From Haloplanus sp. (GTDB lineage: Archaea > Halobacteriota > Halobacteria > Halobacteriales > Haloferacaceae): a stretch of 64,000 nucleotides of DNA. Positions 33,591 to 44,694 of the stretch are shown in pieces (the stretch's first letter is position 1; every line of letters starts with the position of its first letter). The stretch spans positions 1-64,000 of the forward strand of contig NZ_JAQCNJ010000020.1 in the NCBI RefSeq assembly GCF_028275055.1, read 5' to 3'. A program made the translations under genes and the position numbers. Under the pieces are notes generated by a model. The model saw nothing but the letters and a program-made list of their open reading frames with translations, made no database searches and was not told where the DNA came from.

Positions 33591-34517
33591 ATGCACTCAC
33601 GGCTCCGTCGGTGGGCCGACCGGGCCTACGAGCGCCTGCTCAGACGCGACATCGACGGCGGCCCCAACCACGTTGCGATCATCCAGGACGGCAACCGGCG
33701 GTACGCCCGGGAGCGTGGTGGAGGTGCGACCGACGGCCACCGGGAGGGAGCCCAGACAACGGAGCAGGTGTTACGCTGGTGTCAGGAGCTTGGTGTCGAG
33801 GAACTCACCCTCTATGCGTTTTCGACGGAAAACTTCGAACGCCCGCCCGAGGAACGGGATCAGCTGTTCGACCTCATCGAGTCGAAACTCCGGGAGTTCG
33901 CCGACGCGACCGAAATCCACGAAAACGAGGTGTGTATCCGGGCGCTGGGCGATGTGTCCCGCCTGCCCGACCGGGTCCGGGACGCCGTTGCCTACGCCGA
34001 GAAGCGAACCCGATCCTACGACCGCTTCCGGCTGAACGTCGCACTGGCGTACGGCGGGCGCGCGGAACTCCTGGAGGCGGCCCGCGACACGTTGGAGGCG
34101 GTCGATGCCGGCAGCCTCGACGCCGAAAACGTGGACGCGGCCGAAATCGAGCGTCGACTCTACGCCCGGCCGGTCCGGGACGTTGATCTGATCGTCCGCA
34201 CGGGCGGCGACGAACGGACGAGCAACTTTCTACCGTGGCACGCCAACGGCAACGAGGCGGCCGTCTTTTTCTGTGCGCCGTACTGGCCAGAGTTCTCGAA
34301 GGTGGACTTTCTTCGGGCGATCCGCACCTACGAGTCCCGCGAGGCGTCATGGCGACACACCCGAACCGAACGAGCGGTTGCGCTGGTCAGGGCAGTCGCG
34401 GGGTCGTCGCTGGTCGAGACACGGGAGGTCGTTGGCCGCCTGCGCGAGCAGTTGCCACGCGCGAGCGCGGAGGAACTGTCGGCCGAACTCGACGGACAGG
34501 ACGGCACGACCGAGTAG
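33591..34517 (+). CDS. uppS: Polyprenyl diphosphate synthase (UppS family, catalytic-type subunit)
   Basis: A 308-residue cis-prenyltransferase making the polyprenyl (dolichyl) carrier lipid for glycosylation. HVAIIQDGNRRYARERG has the catalytic Asp (D33); TLYAFSTENF and VDLIVRTGGDERTSNF are the other conserved blocks. The C-terminal ~70 residues extend beyond the bacterial enzyme and contain no R-x-G motif after the WPEF segment, where homomeric bacterial enzymes end RRFGG. This is the pattern of the DHDDS-type subunit of heteromeric enzymes. A second, degenerate paralogue lies at 42.7 kb. Confidence 0.9.
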   Translation: MHSRLRRWADRAYERLLRRDIDGGPNHVAIIQDGNRRYARERGGGATDGHREGAQTTEQVLRWCQELGVEELTLYAFSTENFERPPEERDQLFDLIESKLREFADATEIHENEVCIRALGDVSRLPDRVRDAVAYAEKRTRSYDRFRLNVALAYGGRAELLEAARDTLEAVDAGSLDAENVDAAEIERRLYARPVRDVDLIVRTGGDERTSNFLPWHANGNEAAVFFCAPYWPEFSKVDFLRAIRTYESREASWRHTRTERAVALVRAVAGSSLVETREVVGRLREQLPRASAEELSAELDGQDGTTE

Positions 34518-34595: not shown

Positions 34596-36395
34596 ATGGC
34601 AACAAACAACTCGGAAGAAGGCGTCTCACGACGGGCATTTCTGCAGGGAACGGGGGGTGTCGCCGCCGCCGCCGCGGTTGCGGGATGTGGCGGGGGCGGC
34701 GATGCCGAAACGGGGGCGGGGACCGACAACGCCGGAACGGAGCGAGGTGAACCGGATCCCGACGCGACGTTCAACCTGATCAACTCGACGATCACCACCC
34801 TCGATCCGGTCGCGGCGACCGACACGGCCTCGGGAGCCGTTATTGAGAACGTCTTCGACGGTCTGATGAACTACCCAAACGGGGTCGCAGAGGTTGAGGC
34901 GTTGTTGGCGACGGAGTACGAAACCTCGGACGACTTTACCACGTACACGTTTTCGCTCACCGACGCACAGTTTCACGACGGCAGCGAGGTCACGGCACAG
35001 GACTTCGTCTACTCGTTACACCGATTGGCGTTTTCGGAAAACAGCCGGCGCACGCGGTTCGTCATCGACTCACTGGGGGTTACCCGACCCGAGGAAGGGG
35101 AACTCGGGGTCAGCGCCGTCGACGACAGGACGCTCGAAATCCGGCTACAGGAGCCGTTTCATGCCGTTCTCGAGATGCTGGCGTACTCCGCGTTCGCCGT
35201 GGTGCCGGAGGGCATCGTCGGCGATATCGACGGCTACGACGGGGAGATACCGTACGAGACGTTCGCACAGAGCGACCCGGTCGGGGCGGGGCCGTACGAG
35301 TTCGAGGACTGGACTCAAGGGACCAGCGCGGACATCAGACGGTTCGACGACTACCACGGCGGCGACGTCTCGAACGGTGGCGTTCACTGGGACATCATCG
35401 AAGACGATCAGGCGGCGTACAATCACGCGATGAATCAAAACGCCGACCTGTTCGGCCTGCCGACCGCACAGTACGATCCCTCGAAGGTGGGCGTCGACCG
35501 GACCGACGACCGAGGACGCGAACACGGAACCTACGGGGAGTTGCGCAACGGGCTGACCGCCAACTATCTCGCCGTGCCGGAGATTTCGGTGTACTACGTC
35601 GGGTTCAACACTGCCGTCGTTCCGAAGCCGGTCCGGCAGGCGTTTGCGTACGCGACCAACCAGCATCTCCTCGTCGACGAGGTGTTCAAACAACGCGGCG
35701 AGCCGGCTTATCATTTCAGTCCGCCGGGTGTCTACCCCGGCGGCGCGGAGGCATACGACGAACACGCGCGGAACGCCTACCCGTACGGCTACAACGAGAG
35801 TCGGCTCGACGCGGCCGCACGGATCATGGAGGATGCGGGGTACGGCCCGGACGATCCGTTCCAGATCGAATGGACGCAGTACGAGTCCGACTCCTGGCGA
35901 CAGATGGCCCAGATTCTGCGCGATCAGCTGGCGAGGGCGCACATCGAGATGGAGATCCAACGAGCGCCGTTCTCGACGTTGACCGAACGCGGTCGCAACG
36001 GGGATTTGGAGGCGTACACCCTGGGTTGGATCGCGGACTGGCCAGCGCCGGACAACTTTCTACAGCTGCTCAACCCACCACAGACGGACACCTCAACCGA
36101 TGCCCCTATCTCGTTCACGAACTGGAGTGCCGACACCGGCGATGCCGCCGGCCGGGCGACCGAGGCCTACGGGACGATTCGAGACAATCCCGAGCCGACG
36201 GACGCCGCACAGCGGGGCCGGGAGGGAGCGTACATCGAGATGGAGGAGGCCAACTGGGAGGACGTCGGGATTCTCAGCGTCTACCACTCGCTCGGCGAGC
36301 GGTTCTGGTACGACTGGGTCGATATCGAACCCGACGGGGGCATGGGCGGGTCGCGACAGAAGTTCGACGACGTGACGCTCTTCGAGCATGAGTGA
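34596..36395 (+). CDS. Peptide ABC transporter substrate-binding lipoprotein
   Basis: A 599-residue family 5 solute-binding protein (DppA/OppA type). A Tat signal (SRRAFLQGTGG) leads to the lipobox AVAGCGGG with the lipid Cys at about 31, then a Gly/Glu/Thr linker. The binding fold begins at ATFNLINSTITTLDPVAATD and includes DAQFHDGSEVTAQDFVYSLHRL (by its ends). It opens an operon with two permeases and a fused ATPase, so it captures oligopeptides (or another small solute) outside the cell. A TTTAATA box lies 36-42 nt upstream. Confidence 0.92.
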   Translation: MATNNSEEGVSRRAFLQGTGGVAAAAAVAGCGGGGDAETGAGTDNAGTERGEPDPDATFNLINSTITTLDPVAATDTASGAVIENVFDGLMNYPNGVAEVEALLATEYETSDDFTTYTFSLTDAQFHDGSEVTAQDFVYSLHRLAFSENSRRTRFVIDSLGVTRPEEGELGVSAVDDRTLEIRLQEPFHAVLEMLAYSAFAVVPEGIVGDIDGYDGEIPYETFAQSDPVGAGPYEFEDWTQGTSADIRRFDDYHGGDVSNGGVHWDIIEDDQAAYNHAMNQNADLFGLPTAQYDPSKVGVDRTDDRGREHGTYGELRNGLTANYLAVPEISVYYVGFNTAVVPKPVRQAFAYATNQHLLVDEVFKQRGEPAYHFSPPGVYPGGAEAYDEHARNAYPYGYNESRLDAAARIMEDAGYGPDDPFQIEWTQYESDSWRQMAQILRDQLARAHIEMEIQRAPFSTLTERGRNGDLEAYTLGWIADWPAPDNFLQLLNPPQTDTSTDAPISFTNWSADTGDAAGRATEAYGTIRDNPEPTDAAQRGREGAYIEMEEANWEDVGILSVYHSLGERFWYDWVDIEPDGGMGGSRQKFDDVTLFEHE

Positions 36396-36455
36396 CACGG
36401 GAATCCGCGCGGCGCGGGCGGGACCGAACGCGACGGCCCGGTCGGGGAGCCGTCG

Positions 36456-37502
36456 GTGAGCCGTTGGAGTTACTTCGCACGGCGGGTGTTGCTCGCGGTT
36501 CCGGTCGTGTTTTTAGGTACGACCGTTGCTTTTCTGATCGTTCGGCTGGGACCGATCGATCCCGCGGCGGCGATTCTCGGGGCACAACAGGTCGGATCGC
36601 CGGAGTACTATCAGCTTCGCGAACAGCTTGGCCTCACCGATCCGTTGTGGGAGCAGTACATCGACTTCATGTGGGAGATGGTCACCTTCCAGCTCGGCCG
36701 GTCGTGGGTGATCAGTCCCGGCACGCGCGTCAACGACCTCATCGCCATCTACGCTCCGCGAACGATCTGGCTGGGGTTCTGGTCCGTGCTGATCGCGCTC
36801 TGTGTCGGCATCCCGCTGGGGGTGTACGCGGGGCTCAACCCCAACACGCTCGGTGATTACGTCGCCTCATTGGGGGGGATCGTCTGGCGAGCGATGCCGA
36901 ACTTCTGGCTCGCGGTCATCATCGTTACCGTGCTGTCACAGTCTCAGGCGCTGGTCGGGGTCGACTGGGAGCGGCTGTGGGTGTCGACACAGGTCGTTAC
37001 GCCGCCGGACCTGAGCGTCTTCGCCCGCCCGAGAATCCTCATCACGCGTCCGGGCGAGGCGTGGACGCAGGTTGCGGTCGCGGTCAAGCAGGTCGCCCCG
37101 GCCGCGCTGGTGCTCGGTTCGGCGTCGATGGGCAACGAGATGCGCATCGGACGAACAGCCGTTCTCGAGATCATCAACGCCGACTACATTGAGGCCGCAC
37201 GGGCAAAAGGCGTTTCGAGTCGGCGGCTGATCTGGAAACACGTCTTCCGGAACGCCCTCATCCCGCTCGTCCCGATCATCACAGCCGAGGCGTTTCTGCT
37301 CATCGGGGGTTCGGTGCTGGTGGAAACCGTGTTCGCGATCAACGGGCTCGGATACCTGTTCTTCCAAGCCACCGTGCAAGGTGACCTGCCGCTCGTGATC
37401 TCGCTCATGTACATCTTTATTCTGCTGCTCGTCGCCGCGAACATCCTGCAGGACTTTCTCTACACGCTGATCGATCCCCGTGTGGGATACGAACGGAGCT
37501 GA
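36456..37502 (+). CDS. Peptide ABC transporter permease (DppB-type)
   Basis: A 348-residue permease with six transmembrane helices. It has the DppB N-terminus (YFARRVLLAVPVVFLGTTVAF), the LREQLGLTDPLWEQY segment typical of the family, and the EAA loop YIEAARAKGVSSRRLIWKHVFRNALIP (by its ends), which docks onto the ATPase. The start is a GTG. It pairs with the next permease as the heterodimeric channel. Confidence 0.93.
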   Translation: MSRWSYFARRVLLAVPVVFLGTTVAFLIVRLGPIDPAAAILGAQQVGSPEYYQLREQLGLTDPLWEQYIDFMWEMVTFQLGRSWVISPGTRVNDLIAIYAPRTIWLGFWSVLIALCVGIPLGVYAGLNPNTLGDYVASLGGIVWRAMPNFWLAVIIVTVLSQSQALVGVDWERLWVSTQVVTPPDLSVFARPRILITRPGEAWTQVAVAVKQVAPAALVLGSASMGNEMRIGRTAVLEIINADYIEAARAKGVSSRRLIWKHVFRNALIPLVPIITAEAFLLIGGSVLVETVFAINGLGYLFFQATVQGDLPLVISLMYIFILLLVAANILQDFLYTLIDPRVGYERS

Positions 37503-37506
37503 GACG

Positions 37507-39009
37507 ATGCACGATAGAACACCACCGGTGGACACGGAGGGCGGCCACGCCGAGGGGAGCACCGCAACCGGCGAGAAAACGGCGTCACTCACCGAACGCA
37601 TCGCGGCGACCCCGACCCCCGCGGTGTTGTGGGCGGTTGGCCTGTTGGTCCTGCTCGGCGTCGAGTTCGGCGCCGTTCTGCAGACGGGGGCCGCACTCGT
37701 CGCGGGGCTGGGACGGGCGGTCCCCGGCCTCTCGCCCGAGGCACTCGACGGTCTCCGGTCGGCCGCTCGGTCGGTGCCGACACTGCTCTCGCGGGAGACG
37801 ATTCCCACTCAGGGCTGGCGGACGGGTGCCGATGGGCCGTGGCGGTCGACGTTCGCCGGGGTCGAACCCAAACACGCCTGGCTCGTCCGGGTCGGGCTCA
37901 TCTACACCTACGCGTTCGTGTTCTTGGCGTGGCTCTGGCTCGGCTATCGCACCTACCGTCGTCACTACCGGCGCGCCGACTGGACGCCACGAGACGACGT
38001 GATCGACCGGCTACGGAGCCATCGATGGGGGCAGTTCGGCCTCGTCATCGTGTTGGCGTTCGTGGTCATGGCGCTTTTCGCGCCGGCTATGGGTCCGACC
38101 ACCGCCGACCGGAACATCCTCAACCCCTACGACCACGAGATCAAGTATTACGACGCGAGGACGGGCGGAGTCGAGACTATCGCGGTCGGGGACGCCAACC
38201 TCAGGTCGGGATCGGAGGGACCGAGCCGGAACGTGGGACCGTGGACCTACGACGCGTACGGCCGGTTCCACCCGTTCGGAACCCTCCCGAGCGGGAAGGA
38301 CCTGTTCACCTTTCTGGCCGAGGGTGCACGCATCTCCCTGAGCATCGGCGTCGCGTCGATGCTCATCTCCGGTGTGATCGGGATGGCCATGGCCACGATC
38401 ACCGCGTACTACAAGGGGGTGGTTGATCTGCTTGTTGTCCTCACGAGCGACTCGATAAAATCGCTCCCGTTGTTGATGGTGCTCATCCTGGTCGTGGTGG
38501 TGTTTCAGGGGACCTGGCTCGCCGAGGTCTACGACGGTGCCGTCCTGTTGACGTTGGTGTTGGCCCTGGTCAACTGGCCACACCTTTGGCGGGCCGTCCG
38601 CGGGCCCGCACTACAGGTCGCGGAGGCGACGTGGATCGACGCGGCGCGGAGTTTCGGCCAGTCGCCGGCGGTGATCATGCGCAAACACATGGCGCCGTAC
38701 ATCGTCGGGTACATGATGGTGTACGCATCGATGAGTTTGGGCGGGGTCGTCATCTCCGTCGCCGGACTCTCCTTTCTCGGCCTCGGGATCACACCCCCGA
38801 CGCCGGAGTGGGGTCGCGCCGTCAGCGTCGGACAGCCGTACGTGGCGACCGCCTCGTGGCATATCTCGCTTCTGCCGGGCATCCTCGTCACCCTCGTAGT
38901 GACCGGGTTCAACGCGCTTGGAGACGGTCTCCGCGACGCCATCGATCCGGAGAGCGAGGGCGACACGGCCGACGTCGAGAGCACGACGGCCGGCGGAGGT
39001 GGCGCGTGA
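37507..39009 (+). CDS. Peptide ABC transporter permease (DppC-type)
   Basis: A 500-residue permease, unusually long: ~160 extra residues at the N-terminus hold two or three membrane segments (about 38-62, 130-155) before the canonical DppC core ([22 protein letters not shown] by its ends). The EAA loop is [19 protein letters not shown]. The core carries a long external loop (about 195-265). It starts four bases after the DppB stop and ends in a GTGA overlap with the ATPase gene. Confidence 0.9.
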
Positions 39010-41510
39010 CCGACCACAGAGCGGGACCGACAGAACGGACACGGGAGCGCGCCAGCGAGCCGGTTCTCGCCGTGGAGGGCCTTCGGACGACCTTCGAGAC
39101 CGATAAGGAGACGATCAGAGCCGTCGACGGAATCGACTTCGACGTGTGTCCGGGCGAGACGGTCGGACTGGTCGGTGAGTCCGGATCCGGCAAGAGCGTG
39201 ACCGCCCGTTCGATCATGGGGTTGATCGACGCGCCGGGTCGGATCGACCCCGACAGTAGCATCCGTTTTGACGGTGCGGAGTTGGTCGGGAGCTCCGATG
39301 CGGAGTGGCGGGCGGTTCGTGGCGGAAAGGTCGCGATGGTGTTTCAGGATCCACTCTCGCGGCTCAACCCGGTGTACACCGTCGGGAACCAGATCAAGGA
39401 GGCGCTGCGCATCCACCGCGGGCTTCGCGGGGCGGCGGCGACGGCGGAGGCGGTCGAGTTGCTGGAGTCAGTCGGCATCGCGGACGCACAGCGTCGGCTC
39501 GACGAACACCCCCACCAGTTCTCGGGCGGCCAGCGCCAGCGCGCGGTGATCGCCATGGCGCTTGCCTGTGATCCCGAGGTGTTGATCGCCGACGAGCCGA
39601 CGACGGCGCTGGATGCCACCACCCAGGCAAAGGTTCTCGAACTCCTCAAGCGACTGCAGGCCGAGCGGGAGCTGGCGATTCTGTTCATCACACACGACAT
39701 GGGCGTGATCGCGGACGTCTGCGATCGGGTGAACGTCATGTACGCCGGGGAGATCGTCGAGACGGCTGACGTCGAGACGCTGTTTGCCGAACCGGCGCAT
39801 CCGTACACCGAGGGGCTACTGGCGAGTATCCCGGGCGCGCAGTCGGAAACACGGCGGCTGCGGACCATCGAGGGCGAGGTGCCGACGCCGACGGATGCGC
39901 CAACGGCCTGCCGGTTCGCGCCGCGCTGCCCGAAGGCGTTCGGGGAGTGCGAGCGGGTTCACCCGGAGTCGACGGGAGTGACCACCGACGAGTCGGACCA
40001 CACGGTGGCCTGCCTGCTGTACCCGGAGGATGCCGACACCAGTTCCGACTCCAACTCCAACTCGGATTCAGAGTCGGGGGTCGCTGCAAACGTCGATGCC
40101 GGGACTCGACGGGGAGAGCCTGCGAGAGCCGACCGGCGAGAACCGTCGGGGACCGCGAGCGCCGGCGAGAACACGCGTCGGGGCGACCCCACGGGTGAGC
40201 CGTTGATCGAGGTGCGTGGCGTGGAGAAACACTACGAGGTCGGTTCGGGTCCGTTCAGGTCGGCGGCGGTCAGGGCGGTCGATGGGGTGAGCTTCGATAT
40301 TCGGCGAGGGGAGACGCTTGGCCTCGTCGGGGAGTCGGGGTGTGGAAAGACCACACTCGGACGGACCCTTCTTCAACTCGAACGGGAGACGGCTGGCACC
40401 ATCCGGTATGACGGGCGCGACCTGGCCGAGATGTCGGCCACGGAGCGTGAGGGATGGCGTCGCAACGTGGGGATGGTGTTTCAGGACCCCGACTCCAGCC
40501 TCAACGAGCGGATGACGGTCGGCGAACTCGTCCGCGAACCGCTCGACGCACACGGCTGGAAAACACCACCGCGCCGGCGGGCGCGGGTTCGCACCCTGCT
40601 GGAGGACGTGGGACTCCGGCCGGAACATTATCACCGGTATCCCCACCAGTTCTCGGGCGGCCAGCGCCAGCGTGTCGCCATCGCGAGGGCGCTCGCGTTA
40701 CATCCCGAATTTCTCGTTCTCGACGAACCCGTCTCGGCGCTCGATGTCTCCGTGCAGGCACAGGTGCTCAATCTCCTCGATGACCTGCAGGCCGAGTACG
40801 ACCTCACGTACCTGTTTATCGCCCACGACCTCTCGGTCGTACGGCATGCGTGTGACCGGGTTGCGGTGATGTATCTCGGTAACGTACTCGAGTTCGGCGA
40901 GACGGAGACGCTGTTCGAGACCCCCGCAAACCCCTACACCATCTCGCTTCTCTCGGCGGTGCCAACGGCGGAGCCGACACAGGAGACAAACCGGATCACG
41001 CTCCAAGGAACGCCGCCGACGCCACGCGAGCAACCGACCGGCTGTCCGTTCAGCACGCGTTGTCCGATGAAGGTCAGACCGCCCGAATTCGCCGACCTCG
41101 ACGAGGAACTCTTCGACCGGATCGAGACGCTCCGGACGGTCCTCCGGGAACGGTCACAGGCCGACAGATCCCTGACCGATCGGGTCGCGTCCGTGTTCGG
41201 CCGGGGTGGTGCGAACGCGGATGTCGCAACGATTCGAGACGAACTGTTCGGCGATGTCACACTGCCCCCGAAGGCAAAGCGACCGGTAGACGATGCGCTG
41301 GCGAGGCTGGAAGCGGGCGAACTCGGGGCCGCACGGCGAACGCTGGCCGACGCGTTCGGCAGCGACTGTGACAACGCCACGCCCGAAACGTACCGGGTAG
41401 GACCGACCGGGCGGACGAGCCGGTGTCACCGCCACCGCGACGGCGAGGTCGACCCCGGATCGACGGTCGACCTCGATCGGTACACCCTCGGCTCCGGTCC
41501 AGACGAATGA
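39006..41510 (+). CDS. Fused double ATPase of peptide ABC transporter (DppD-DppF)
   Basis: An 834-residue protein with two complete nucleotide-binding domains in one chain. NBD1: Walker A GESGSGKS (about 58-65), signature SGGQRQR, Walker [16 protein letters not shown]2 begins ~400: Walker [10 protein letters not shown], signature SGGQRQR, Walker [12 protein letters not shown]. Both end in the Oligo_HPY Cys motif. An acidic Ser/Asn/Asp linker of ~60 residues joins them. NBD2 has a ~110-residue insertion ([20 protein letters not shown] onward) before its last Cys-x-His pair. In most organisms DppD and DppF are separate. The GTG start overlaps the permease by 4 nt. Confidence 0.92.
39510..39541 (+). 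repeat. 32-nt identical repeat in the two ATPase halves (second copy 40641-40672)
   Basis: The DNA from CCCCACCAGTTCTCGGGCGG to CAGCGCCAGCG is identical at both sites, covering [10 protein letters not shown] in each NBD. Identity at every wobble position over a diverged gene pair suggests strong codon bias or local gene conversion. Confidence 0.6.
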
Positions 41511-42657: not shown

Positions 42658-43266
42658 TTATCGGCCGAACCGTCGCTGGCGGTTCTGGTAATCGAGCACC
42701 GCCCGGAGGTAATCGCGCTTGCGCACGTCCCGCCAGTTCACGTCGGTGAAGTACAGTTCCGAGTAGACGGACTGCCAGATCATGAAATCGGAGAGGCGTT
42801 CGGCTCCCGTCTTGACCAGAAGGTCGGGTTCGTCCGGAAAGACCAGACGACGCTCCACGTCGGTCTCGTCGACGTCGGCAGGGTCGAGCCGGCCGGCGTC
42901 GACCTCCTCTGCGAGCGAGCGGACGGCGGCGGCGAACTCACCCTTGCCGCCGAGGCCGACGTTCACCTGAACGGGGGCGGCGACGGGTTCGGTGTCGTCC
43001 GGAGCCCGGACCGCCACCGGTCGGGGCGCGTCGACCGACCGGAGTTCGCGTTCGAGCGTCGGCACCACCGCCTCGTCGAGAACACTCACCGAGACGGTGA
43101 CGCGGTCGGCACCGTACTCGAACGCCCAGCGGAGAACGCGTTCGAGACGGTCGTAGGCTCCCTGTTCCAGCAGGTCGCGCTCGGTGAGGACAAAGGCGAC
43201 GTGGGCGGGCGGGGCGCCGTCGTGGAGGTGGTGTCTGAGCGCGAGATACCGGTCGTACAGTCCCAC
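42658..43266 (-). CDS. Degenerate UppS-family paralogue (NgBR-like accessory subunit?)
   Basis: A 202-residue cis-prenyltransferase homologue. Its C-terminal half is clearly UppS-like: DLLVKTGAERLSDFMIWQSV, SELYFTDVNW and the terminal NRQRRFGR, which contains the R-x-G motif as RFG. But the catalytic N-terminal block HVAxxxDGN is replaced by HVAFVLTERD (22-31), with no DGN, and the substrate Arg of the VRTGG block is Lys. It is therefore unlikely to be active alone and may pair with the 33.6-kb UppS. GTG 43266 is taken as start; the frame extends further but not family-like. Divergent from the DUF92 gene. Confidence 0.75.
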   Translation of the reverse strand: MGLYDRYLALRHHLHDGAPPAHVAFVLTERDLLEQGAYDRLERVLRWAFEYGADRVTVSVSVLDEAVVPTLERELRSVDAPRPVAVRAPDDTEPVAAPVQVNVGLGGKGEFAAAVRSLAEEVDAGRLDPADVDETDVERRLVFPDEPDLLVKTGAERLSDFMIWQSVYSELYFTDVNWRDVRKRDYLRAVLDYQNRQRRFGR

Positions 43267-43356: not shown

Positions 43357-43374
43357 TGGCCATCGCAGGTAGCG

Positions 43375-44694
43375 ATGGGTGTGACGTCCACCCTTCGGCG
43401 GGCGGGAGGGTTCGCGGCCGTCGGAACGCTCGCGCTCGCCGCCCCCGAACTCGGACGTGCGGTGGCCGCCCCCTTTGCCGTCGTAGCACTTCTCGCGGCG
43501 TTCGTGATCAACGAGGGGCGGCTGTTCGACCTGTTCGCCCGGCCACAGGACCGCCGGGACGGCCGCCTCAACGGGCTGGCAGGGTTCGCGCTGGCCGCCA
43601 CGGGACTCGCGGTCCTCTCAACGGCCCCGCGAGCGTCGATGCCGACGGCCGTCTTCGTCGCGGCGGTGTTGGTCGTCGGCTACGGCAACCTCGGCGCGCG
43701 CGCCGTCGAGCAGGTGGACACCGATCCGTTCCGCGTTGTTGCCGGCTTCAGCCTCGCCGCCTTCGCCGCCGCCGTCGCCGGGCAACTGGTCGTCGGGTGG
43801 ACGCTCGGCTCGGTCCGGCCGGTGCCGACCGTTGCCTTTCTCGCCGCGGCCGGTTCGCTCGTGGCGGCGCTCATACGGACGATGCTGTTCGAACGCGACG
43901 ACCCCATCGTGATGCTGTCGACCGGCCTCCTGCTTTGGCTGTTCGAGGGTATCGGTGTCGGTCCGGGGTTCGAGGAGGTCGGCGTCGCCCTCGGAGTGAC
44001 GGTCGCCCTCGGCTACGTCTCCTACCGCACAGGCACCGCGTCCGTGCCGGGGATGGTGACCGGGGTGTTGCTCGGTCTGCTTACCATCGTCTTCGGCGGG
44101 TTCGGGTGGTTCGCCGTTCTCATCGCATTTTTTGGGGTCGGTGGTCTCTCCGCCAAATACCGATACGACGAGAAACGGTCACGGGGTGTCGCCGAGGACA
44201 ACGAGGGGGCGCGGGGGAGCGGGAACGTTCTCGGTAACGCCGCCGTCGCGCTGATGGCCGTTATCGGCTTCGCCGCGAGCGCCGGGGTCCCGGTCGACGG
44301 CACGCTCTTTCGGTTTGCCTTCACCGGATCGCTCGCCGCCGCAATGAGCGACACGCTGTCGAGCGAAATCGGCGTCCTGTTCGATCGCCCACGGCTGATT
44401 ACGACGCTTGAACACGTCGACCCCGGTACCGACGGCGGGATCACGTGGCAGGGGTATCTCGTCGGCGTCGCCGGGGCCGGCATCATCGCCGTCGTCGCCG
44501 TCGCCCTGTTCGTGTTCAACCGACCCGCGCTCGCGGCGGCGGCCGTCGTCTGTGGCGGCGTCGCCGGGATGACCGTCGACAGCGTTCTCGGTGCGACACT
44601 CGAGGGCGGCCGCGTCGGCAACCAGACGGTCAACTTTCTCGGCACGCTTGCCGGTGCCATCGTGAGCGTCGCCCTTGCCGCTGTCCTGCTGTGA
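43375..44694 (+). CDS. DUF92/TIGR00297-family integral membrane protein (kinase-like)
   Basis: A 439-residue protein with ~11 helices. The C-terminal ~250 residues carry the DUF92 core: VGGLSAKYRYDEK, GNVLGNAAVALMAVIG, FTGSLAAAMSDTLSSEIG and TVDSVLGATLEGG, with the invariant acidic and polar residues in SDTLSSE. The first ~170 residues are a haloarchaeal extension of membrane helices. Plant VTE6 and cyanobacterial relatives of DUF92 phosphorylate phytyl monophosphate with CTP, so a polyprenyl- or phytyl-phosphate kinase role is inferred. The neighbouring cis-prenyltransferase paralogue fits. Stop overlaps the GNAT gene start (GTGA). Confidence 0.8.
   Translation: MGVTSTLRRAGGFAAVGTLALAAPELGRAVAAPFAVVALLAAFVINEGRLFDLFARPQDRRDGRLNGLAGFALAATGLAVLSTAPRASMPTAVFVAAVLVVGYGNLGARAVEQVDTDPFRVVAGFSLAAFAAAVAGQLVVGWTLGSVRPVPTVAFLAAAGSLVAALIRTMLFERDDPIVMLSTGLLLWLFEGIGVGPGFEEVGVALGVTVALGYVSYRTGTASVPGMVTGVLLGLLTIVFGGFGWFAVLIAFFGVGGLSAKYRYDEKRSRGVAEDNEGARGSGNVLGNAAVALMAVIGFAASAGVPVDGTLFRFAFTGSLAAAMSDTLSSEIGVLFDRPRLITTLEHVDPGTDGGITWQGYLVGVAGAGIIAVVAVALFVFNRPALAAAAVVCGGVAGMTVDSVLGATLEGGRVGNQTVNFLGTLAGAIVSVALAAVLL

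Follow-up and report, generated by a model that had tools for sequence, protein, structure and literature searches.

By the textbook rule, heteromeric cis-prenyltransferases (cPTs) make chains over C70 and homodimeric ones chains of C50-55. In the human heteromer of DHDDS and NgBR (NUS1), the NgBR tail crosses the subunit interface and its RxG backbone holds a phosphate in the DHDDS active site. The C-terminal helix-turn-helix of DHDDS is incompatible with a homodimer whose tail reaches the active site, and the human complex is approximately 400-fold more active than the weakly active homodimers that DHDDS forms alone (PMC7573591). Among archaea, Methanosarcina mazei possesses three paralogues, of which MM_0618 and MM_1083 form a heteromer with C45-50 products, as described in PMC8131916, which cites Emi et al. 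(2019); the methanogen enzyme that the earlier note on this DNA, a first reading of the sequence, had mentioned is real. Haloarchaeal dolichyl phosphate has a length of about C55-60, and PMC10821996 gives about C60. In a literature search that covered little subscription literature, no paper naming or describing the enzyme for the haloarchaeal dolichol chain was found. The kind of enzyme is already known from eukaryotes and M. mazei, and what is new is that it extends to haloarchaea, that it is nearly universal in Halobacteriota and that its gene order is conserved.

The DNA analysed here (the window) is a stretch of 64,000 nucleotides from Haloplanus sp., and its features of interest are listed in Table 1. 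The earlier note had described two UppS paralogues, a long one which keeps the DGN block (D33) but has no RxG motif and carries a helical C-terminal extension, and a short one which lacks DGN (HVAFVLTERD), has VKTGA for VRTGG and ends with NRQRRFGR; all of this is borne out by the sequences and by an AlphaFold model of the long protein. The long protein carries VRTGG at residues 202-206 and continues after YESREASWRHT with a 50-residue tail, which is devoid of a terminal RxG. In its model (mean pLDDT 89.6), helices span residues 237-270, 274-287, and 290-304. As mere strings, RTG, as part of VRTGG, and RGG near residue 42 also fit RxG, neither of which is the C-terminal motif. In the short open reading frame only the C-terminal half of PF01255 (119-223 of 224) is matched, and HVAFVLTERD aligns with HVAIIMDGN of UppS. 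Comparison with genus mates places the start of the short gene at the GTG at 43266, since VGLYDRYL is conserved and the 22 residues upstream of it are not. The short protein begins at the cPT domain, and an N-terminal membrane anchor ahead of the domain is absent.

Table 1. Features of the cPT pair and its neighbour in the Haloplanus window.
Feature	Position	Strand	Evidence
Putative catalytic cPT subunit (long paralogue, DHDDS-like)	33591..34517	+	PF01255 1.5e-69, residues 31-252
D33-G-N-R-R catalytic block	33687..33701	+	Invariant in 202 aligned long sequences
C-terminal helical extension replacing the UppS homodimer RxG tail	34341..34514	+	AlphaFold helices; 132 paired long copies without UppS-like tail
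Putative accessory cPT subunit (short paralogue, NgBR/Nus1-like in role)	42658..43266	-	PF01255 C-terminal half, 1.8e-24
HVAFVLTERD replacing the DGN block	43174..43203	-	DGN absent here in 167 aligned short sequences
VKTGA replacing VRTGG (lysine for the IPP-binding arginine)	42802..42816	-	Lysine in 83% of the short and arginine in 100% of the long copies
R199-F-G201, C-terminal RxG, predicted to reach into the active site of the long subunit	42664..42672	-	R/K199 and G201 in essentially all short sequences
DUF92/TIGR00297 membrane protein, encoded head-to-head with the short gene; a genomic neighbour and no component of the enzyme	43369..44694	+	PF01940 9.8e-55

We consider it highly probable that the long and the short protein together form one heteromeric cPT, as its two subunits, and that this enzyme makes the dolichol precursor. 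The long subunit would bind the allylic diphosphate and Mg2+ via D33 and IPP via R203, R209, and S211; it lacks the tail that crosses the dimer interface in homodimeric UppS. The short subunit, predicted to have the same fold without the catalytic residues, would dock onto the long one, whereby its C-terminal RRFGR would pass into the active site of the long subunit, comparable to the NgBR tail in the DHDDS site. The product would very likely be a polyprenyl diphosphate, presumably of C55-60, that is converted to the haloarchaeal dolichyl phosphate. Complex formation, the dependence of activity on both subunits and the product length are what we infer from the sequences, and the dependence on the short subunit may not be absolute, DHDDS alone being weakly active. 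The heteromer would be the only enzyme with which this archaeon makes cis-polyprenyl diphosphates; its genome assembly is 79% complete.

In order to follow the motifs over the phylum, 201 long and 166 short sequences were extracted and the window copies were added, which resulted in sets of 202 and 167. R203, R209, and S211, the IPP-binding residues, are as invariant in the long set as DGNRR. In the short set, E170 is invariant, and DGN does not occur at the catalytic position in any of the 167 sequences; a DGN string in the short copy of locus L286 was rejected as a catalytic block, as it sits in an unrelated loop. For pairs from the same genome, DGNRR was found in 132 of 132 long copies and the terminal tail motif in 132 of 132 short copies. 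DGN and RxG together in one chain, the trait of homodimeric UppS, occur neither in the window proteins nor in the paired sets. Outside the pairs, one catalytic-type copy of family f15 (L069:1408-2184 (+)) ends with the RxG-like RRFGGQKYK, whereas its close relatives end with RRYSSQKYK. This tail is possibly a regain or a relic of homodimer competence, and the loss of RxG from the catalytic subunit is therefore not absolute phylum-wide. The pairwise distances of the two subunits correlate with 0.94 over 133 genomes, but this value was set aside as a sign of subunit contact, since both subunits track the species tree.

These motif data bear on the possibility that the long subunit is complete as a homodimer and that the short one is a mere modulator, stabiliser or membrane-recruitment factor. 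The long protein does hold every residue that binds the allylic diphosphate and IPP, some orthologues in family f15 are devoid of the C-terminal extension, and the weak activity of DHDDS alone (PMC7573591) is a precedent. However, the extension stands in place of the UppS-like tail, which none of the 132 paired long copies carries, and the tail and E170 of the short protein are invariant like catalytic residues, which a modulator would not need. We therefore regard a self-sufficient long homodimer as improbable compared with a heteromer of both proteins.

The occurrence of the pair was analysed in 391 Halobacteria genomes and in a phylum sample of 197 Halobacteriota genomes, 157 of them outside Halobacteria. 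A routine presence of a single copy, which would have refuted the proposal of the earlier note, was not observed in haloarchaea: at least two PF01255 copies are present in 388 of the 391 Halobacteria genomes, and the same applies to 154 of the 157 genomes outside this class. The window's own genome contains exactly two PF01255 genes, one long and one short. The copies were assigned to classes in 156 genomes (93 haloarchaeal, 63 outside Halobacteria), with most genera represented by one genome, whereby long denotes a match over the whole domain and short a match that is limited to the C-terminal half and reaches the very end. Both classes were found in 91 of the 93 haloarchaeal genomes, G072 apparently being the only one without a long and G382 the only one without a short copy. 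These two genomes and G390, which has neither, are the three Halobacteria exceptions, and all three assemblies are fragmented or incomplete. In G382, nothing occupies the site downstream of the long gene where the short gene is usually found. In G236 and G386, the short copy is incomplete owing to a contig end or a frame break; in the latter genome (G386:C1:97118-97463) the accessory gene is split across two frames, for which a sequencing error and a recent break are both possible. Two genomes of family f18 (G397 and G405, approximately 91% complete) have no PF01255 gene, and one haloarchaeal genus has a third, divergent PF01255 protein that ends with RRNEGR (L268:714-2099 (-), genome G002; IPDGHRRYADERG).

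A maximum-likelihood tree of 79 proteins recovered a short clade (88/100) and a long clade (87/91), each of which comprises haloarchaea, Methanosarcina-like and other lineages. Methanosarcina genomes have a single copy of each class and in some cases an additional one, which corresponds to MM_0014 (2e-127 to 7caq). Like the window pair, the MM_0014 type is an archaeal PF01255 protein, but it is a single-chain, DGN-bearing short-chain cPT that is confined to some Methanosarcina-like genomes. Because the third Methanosarcina paralogue is MM_0014, and given the grouping in the tree, the haloarchaeal pair is assigned as orthologous to MM_0618/MM_1083 of M. mazei, an assignment that follows from the tree and from the elimination of MM_0014, and not from the locus tags. 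The enzymes of M. mazei and of haloarchaea would share one DGN subunit, one RxG subunit and a product that is the precursor of a glycosyl carrier. They differ in chain length, the C45-50 of M. mazei standing against about C55-60 of haloarchaeal dolichyl phosphate. Furthermore, the Methanosarcina genes are unlinked, whereas the haloarchaeal ones are usually convergent neighbours, and the haloarchaeal enzyme must, unlike that of M. mazei, function in molar salt.

With a profile from 60 long orthologues, human DHDDS was the best solved relative (1.7e-71), followed by E. coli UppS (3.8e-70), and in structure comparison the AlphaFold model of the long protein matches both equally well (Z 29.4 to UppS, 1x06; Z 29.1 to DHDDS, 7pb1_A). 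The UppS homodimer has the same fold and chemistry as the long subunit, but it combines DGN and RxG in one chain. Human DHDDS and the archaeal long subunit both have a C-terminal helical extension. A profile of the short subunit covers the whole cPT domain of human NUS1 (4e-13). The short model superimposes on NUS1 (6z1n_B) with Z 15.8 and an rmsd of 3.9 over 179 residues, with UppS (Z 15.8) and plant cPTs tied, so that structure comparison fails as a means to tell NUS1 from UppS for this protein. Both models have their lowest confidence near the loop preceding the last strand, the short one also in its tail; in the human complex, these are regions that face the partner. Human NUS1, the sequence of which was verified against PDB 6w2l_B, has HMGLVITEVE in the DGN region, where the archaeal short copies have HVALVITERD, both without DGN. 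It has VLKFG for VRTGG and ends with EQRLGK, so that NUS1 and the archaeal short subunit share the change of the IPP arginine to lysine and a retained terminal RxG. These changes in NUS1 and the motif complementarity of the paired copies match the division of labour of DHDDS and NgBR/Nus1, to which the earlier note had likened the pair. NgBR carries an N-terminal membrane anchor, which the archaeal subunit does not have, and the human product is C85-100 compared to about C55-60 for haloarchaeal dolichyl phosphate.

In the tree, DHDDS groups with bacterial UppS (88/58), outside the long clade, but joining it to the long clade was not rejected (p 0.298). NUS1 sits on an end branch of 5.68 and is unplaced; its joining to the short clade was not rejected either (AU p 0.346). 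The likeness of the archaeal pair to human DHDDS/NgBR is therefore taken as functional and not as proof of common descent. It seems rather unlikely that the heteromer is ancestral in archaea, that NgBR/Nus1 derives from the archaeal short subunit and DHDDS from the long one, and that the two archaeal subunit genes and DUF92 represent an old polyprenyl-phosphate cluster with DUF92 as a prenyl- or polyprenyl-phosphate kinase. If such a descent were true, the human dolichol synthase would be an archaeal inheritance.

Where both genes lie on one locus, they are convergent in 91 of 92 cases. In 69 of the 93 haloarchaeal genomes, no more than 5 kb separates them, and in 22 of these 93 no more than 100 bp; outside Halobacteria, 20 of the 63 genomes stay within 5 kb. 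By chance, two unrelated genes would be that close in well under 1% of 3.5-Mb genomes, a figure to be read with the relatedness of the genomes in mind, whose counts are not independent. In the window, the convergent genes are 8.1 kb apart, in accordance with the spacing of 8 kb stated in the earlier note, and are separated by an oligopeptide ABC-transporter operon (34596-41510) and a DUF7529 gene. This gap is a local exception, as most haloarchaea have the two genes as convergent neighbours; in the genus mate G233, they lie approximately 2.6 kb apart. On the other side, the short gene stands head-to-head with the DUF92 gene, an arrangement found in 89 of 154 loci with sufficient flank (including L033-L062 and L375-L408) and, by gene positions, again in several deep families. 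Nearly all of the 65 loci without it are Methanosarcinaceae-like or ANME-1-like. All 60 Halobacteriota genomes that were sampled contain DUF92 once, and a PDB search yielded no solved relative of it. Plant VTE6, which we take to belong to DUF92, is a phytyl-phosphate kinase. DUF92 is a candidate for a prenyl- or polyprenyl-phosphate kinase that would act next to the cPT, which is a lead worth following.

The DUF92 gene in these 89 loci, a genomic partner at least as close as the long gene in many lineages, would fit a short paralogue that serves a separate process, either in prenyl-lipid binding or together with DUF92, and is no partner of the long protein. We consider this very improbable, since the most conserved part of the short protein is the tail, which in all known relatives serves the active site of another subunit, since its co-occurrence with the long gene is near-perfect and the two are linked convergently, and since the Methanosarcina orthologue is, according to PMC8131916, a demonstrated cPT subunit. 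A reading of the short gene as a duplicate in decay, which the lost catalytic block might suggest, is refuted by selection and distribution, with a dN/dS of 0.06-0.12 against seven genus mates and an old clade found phylum-wide, and we give it next to no weight. This dN/dS identifies a working gene under purifying selection and, together with the 132 of 132 genome-level pairs, indicates that the complementary defects exceed what chance or decay would produce. Overall, the proposal of the earlier note that the haloarchaeal dolichol synthase is a heteromer appears well supported by motifs, co-occurrence, linkage, fold, and orthology.

Haloarchaea are main models of archaeal N-glycosylation, and with a two-subunit enzyme that would be near-universal in Halobacteriota, work on a single gene would mislead. 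As archaeal heteromers would make chains of C45-60, the rule that assigns long chains to heteromers and short ones to homodimers is weakened. Moreover, the archaeal pair may provide relatives of the human disease complex that are soluble and carry no membrane anchor.
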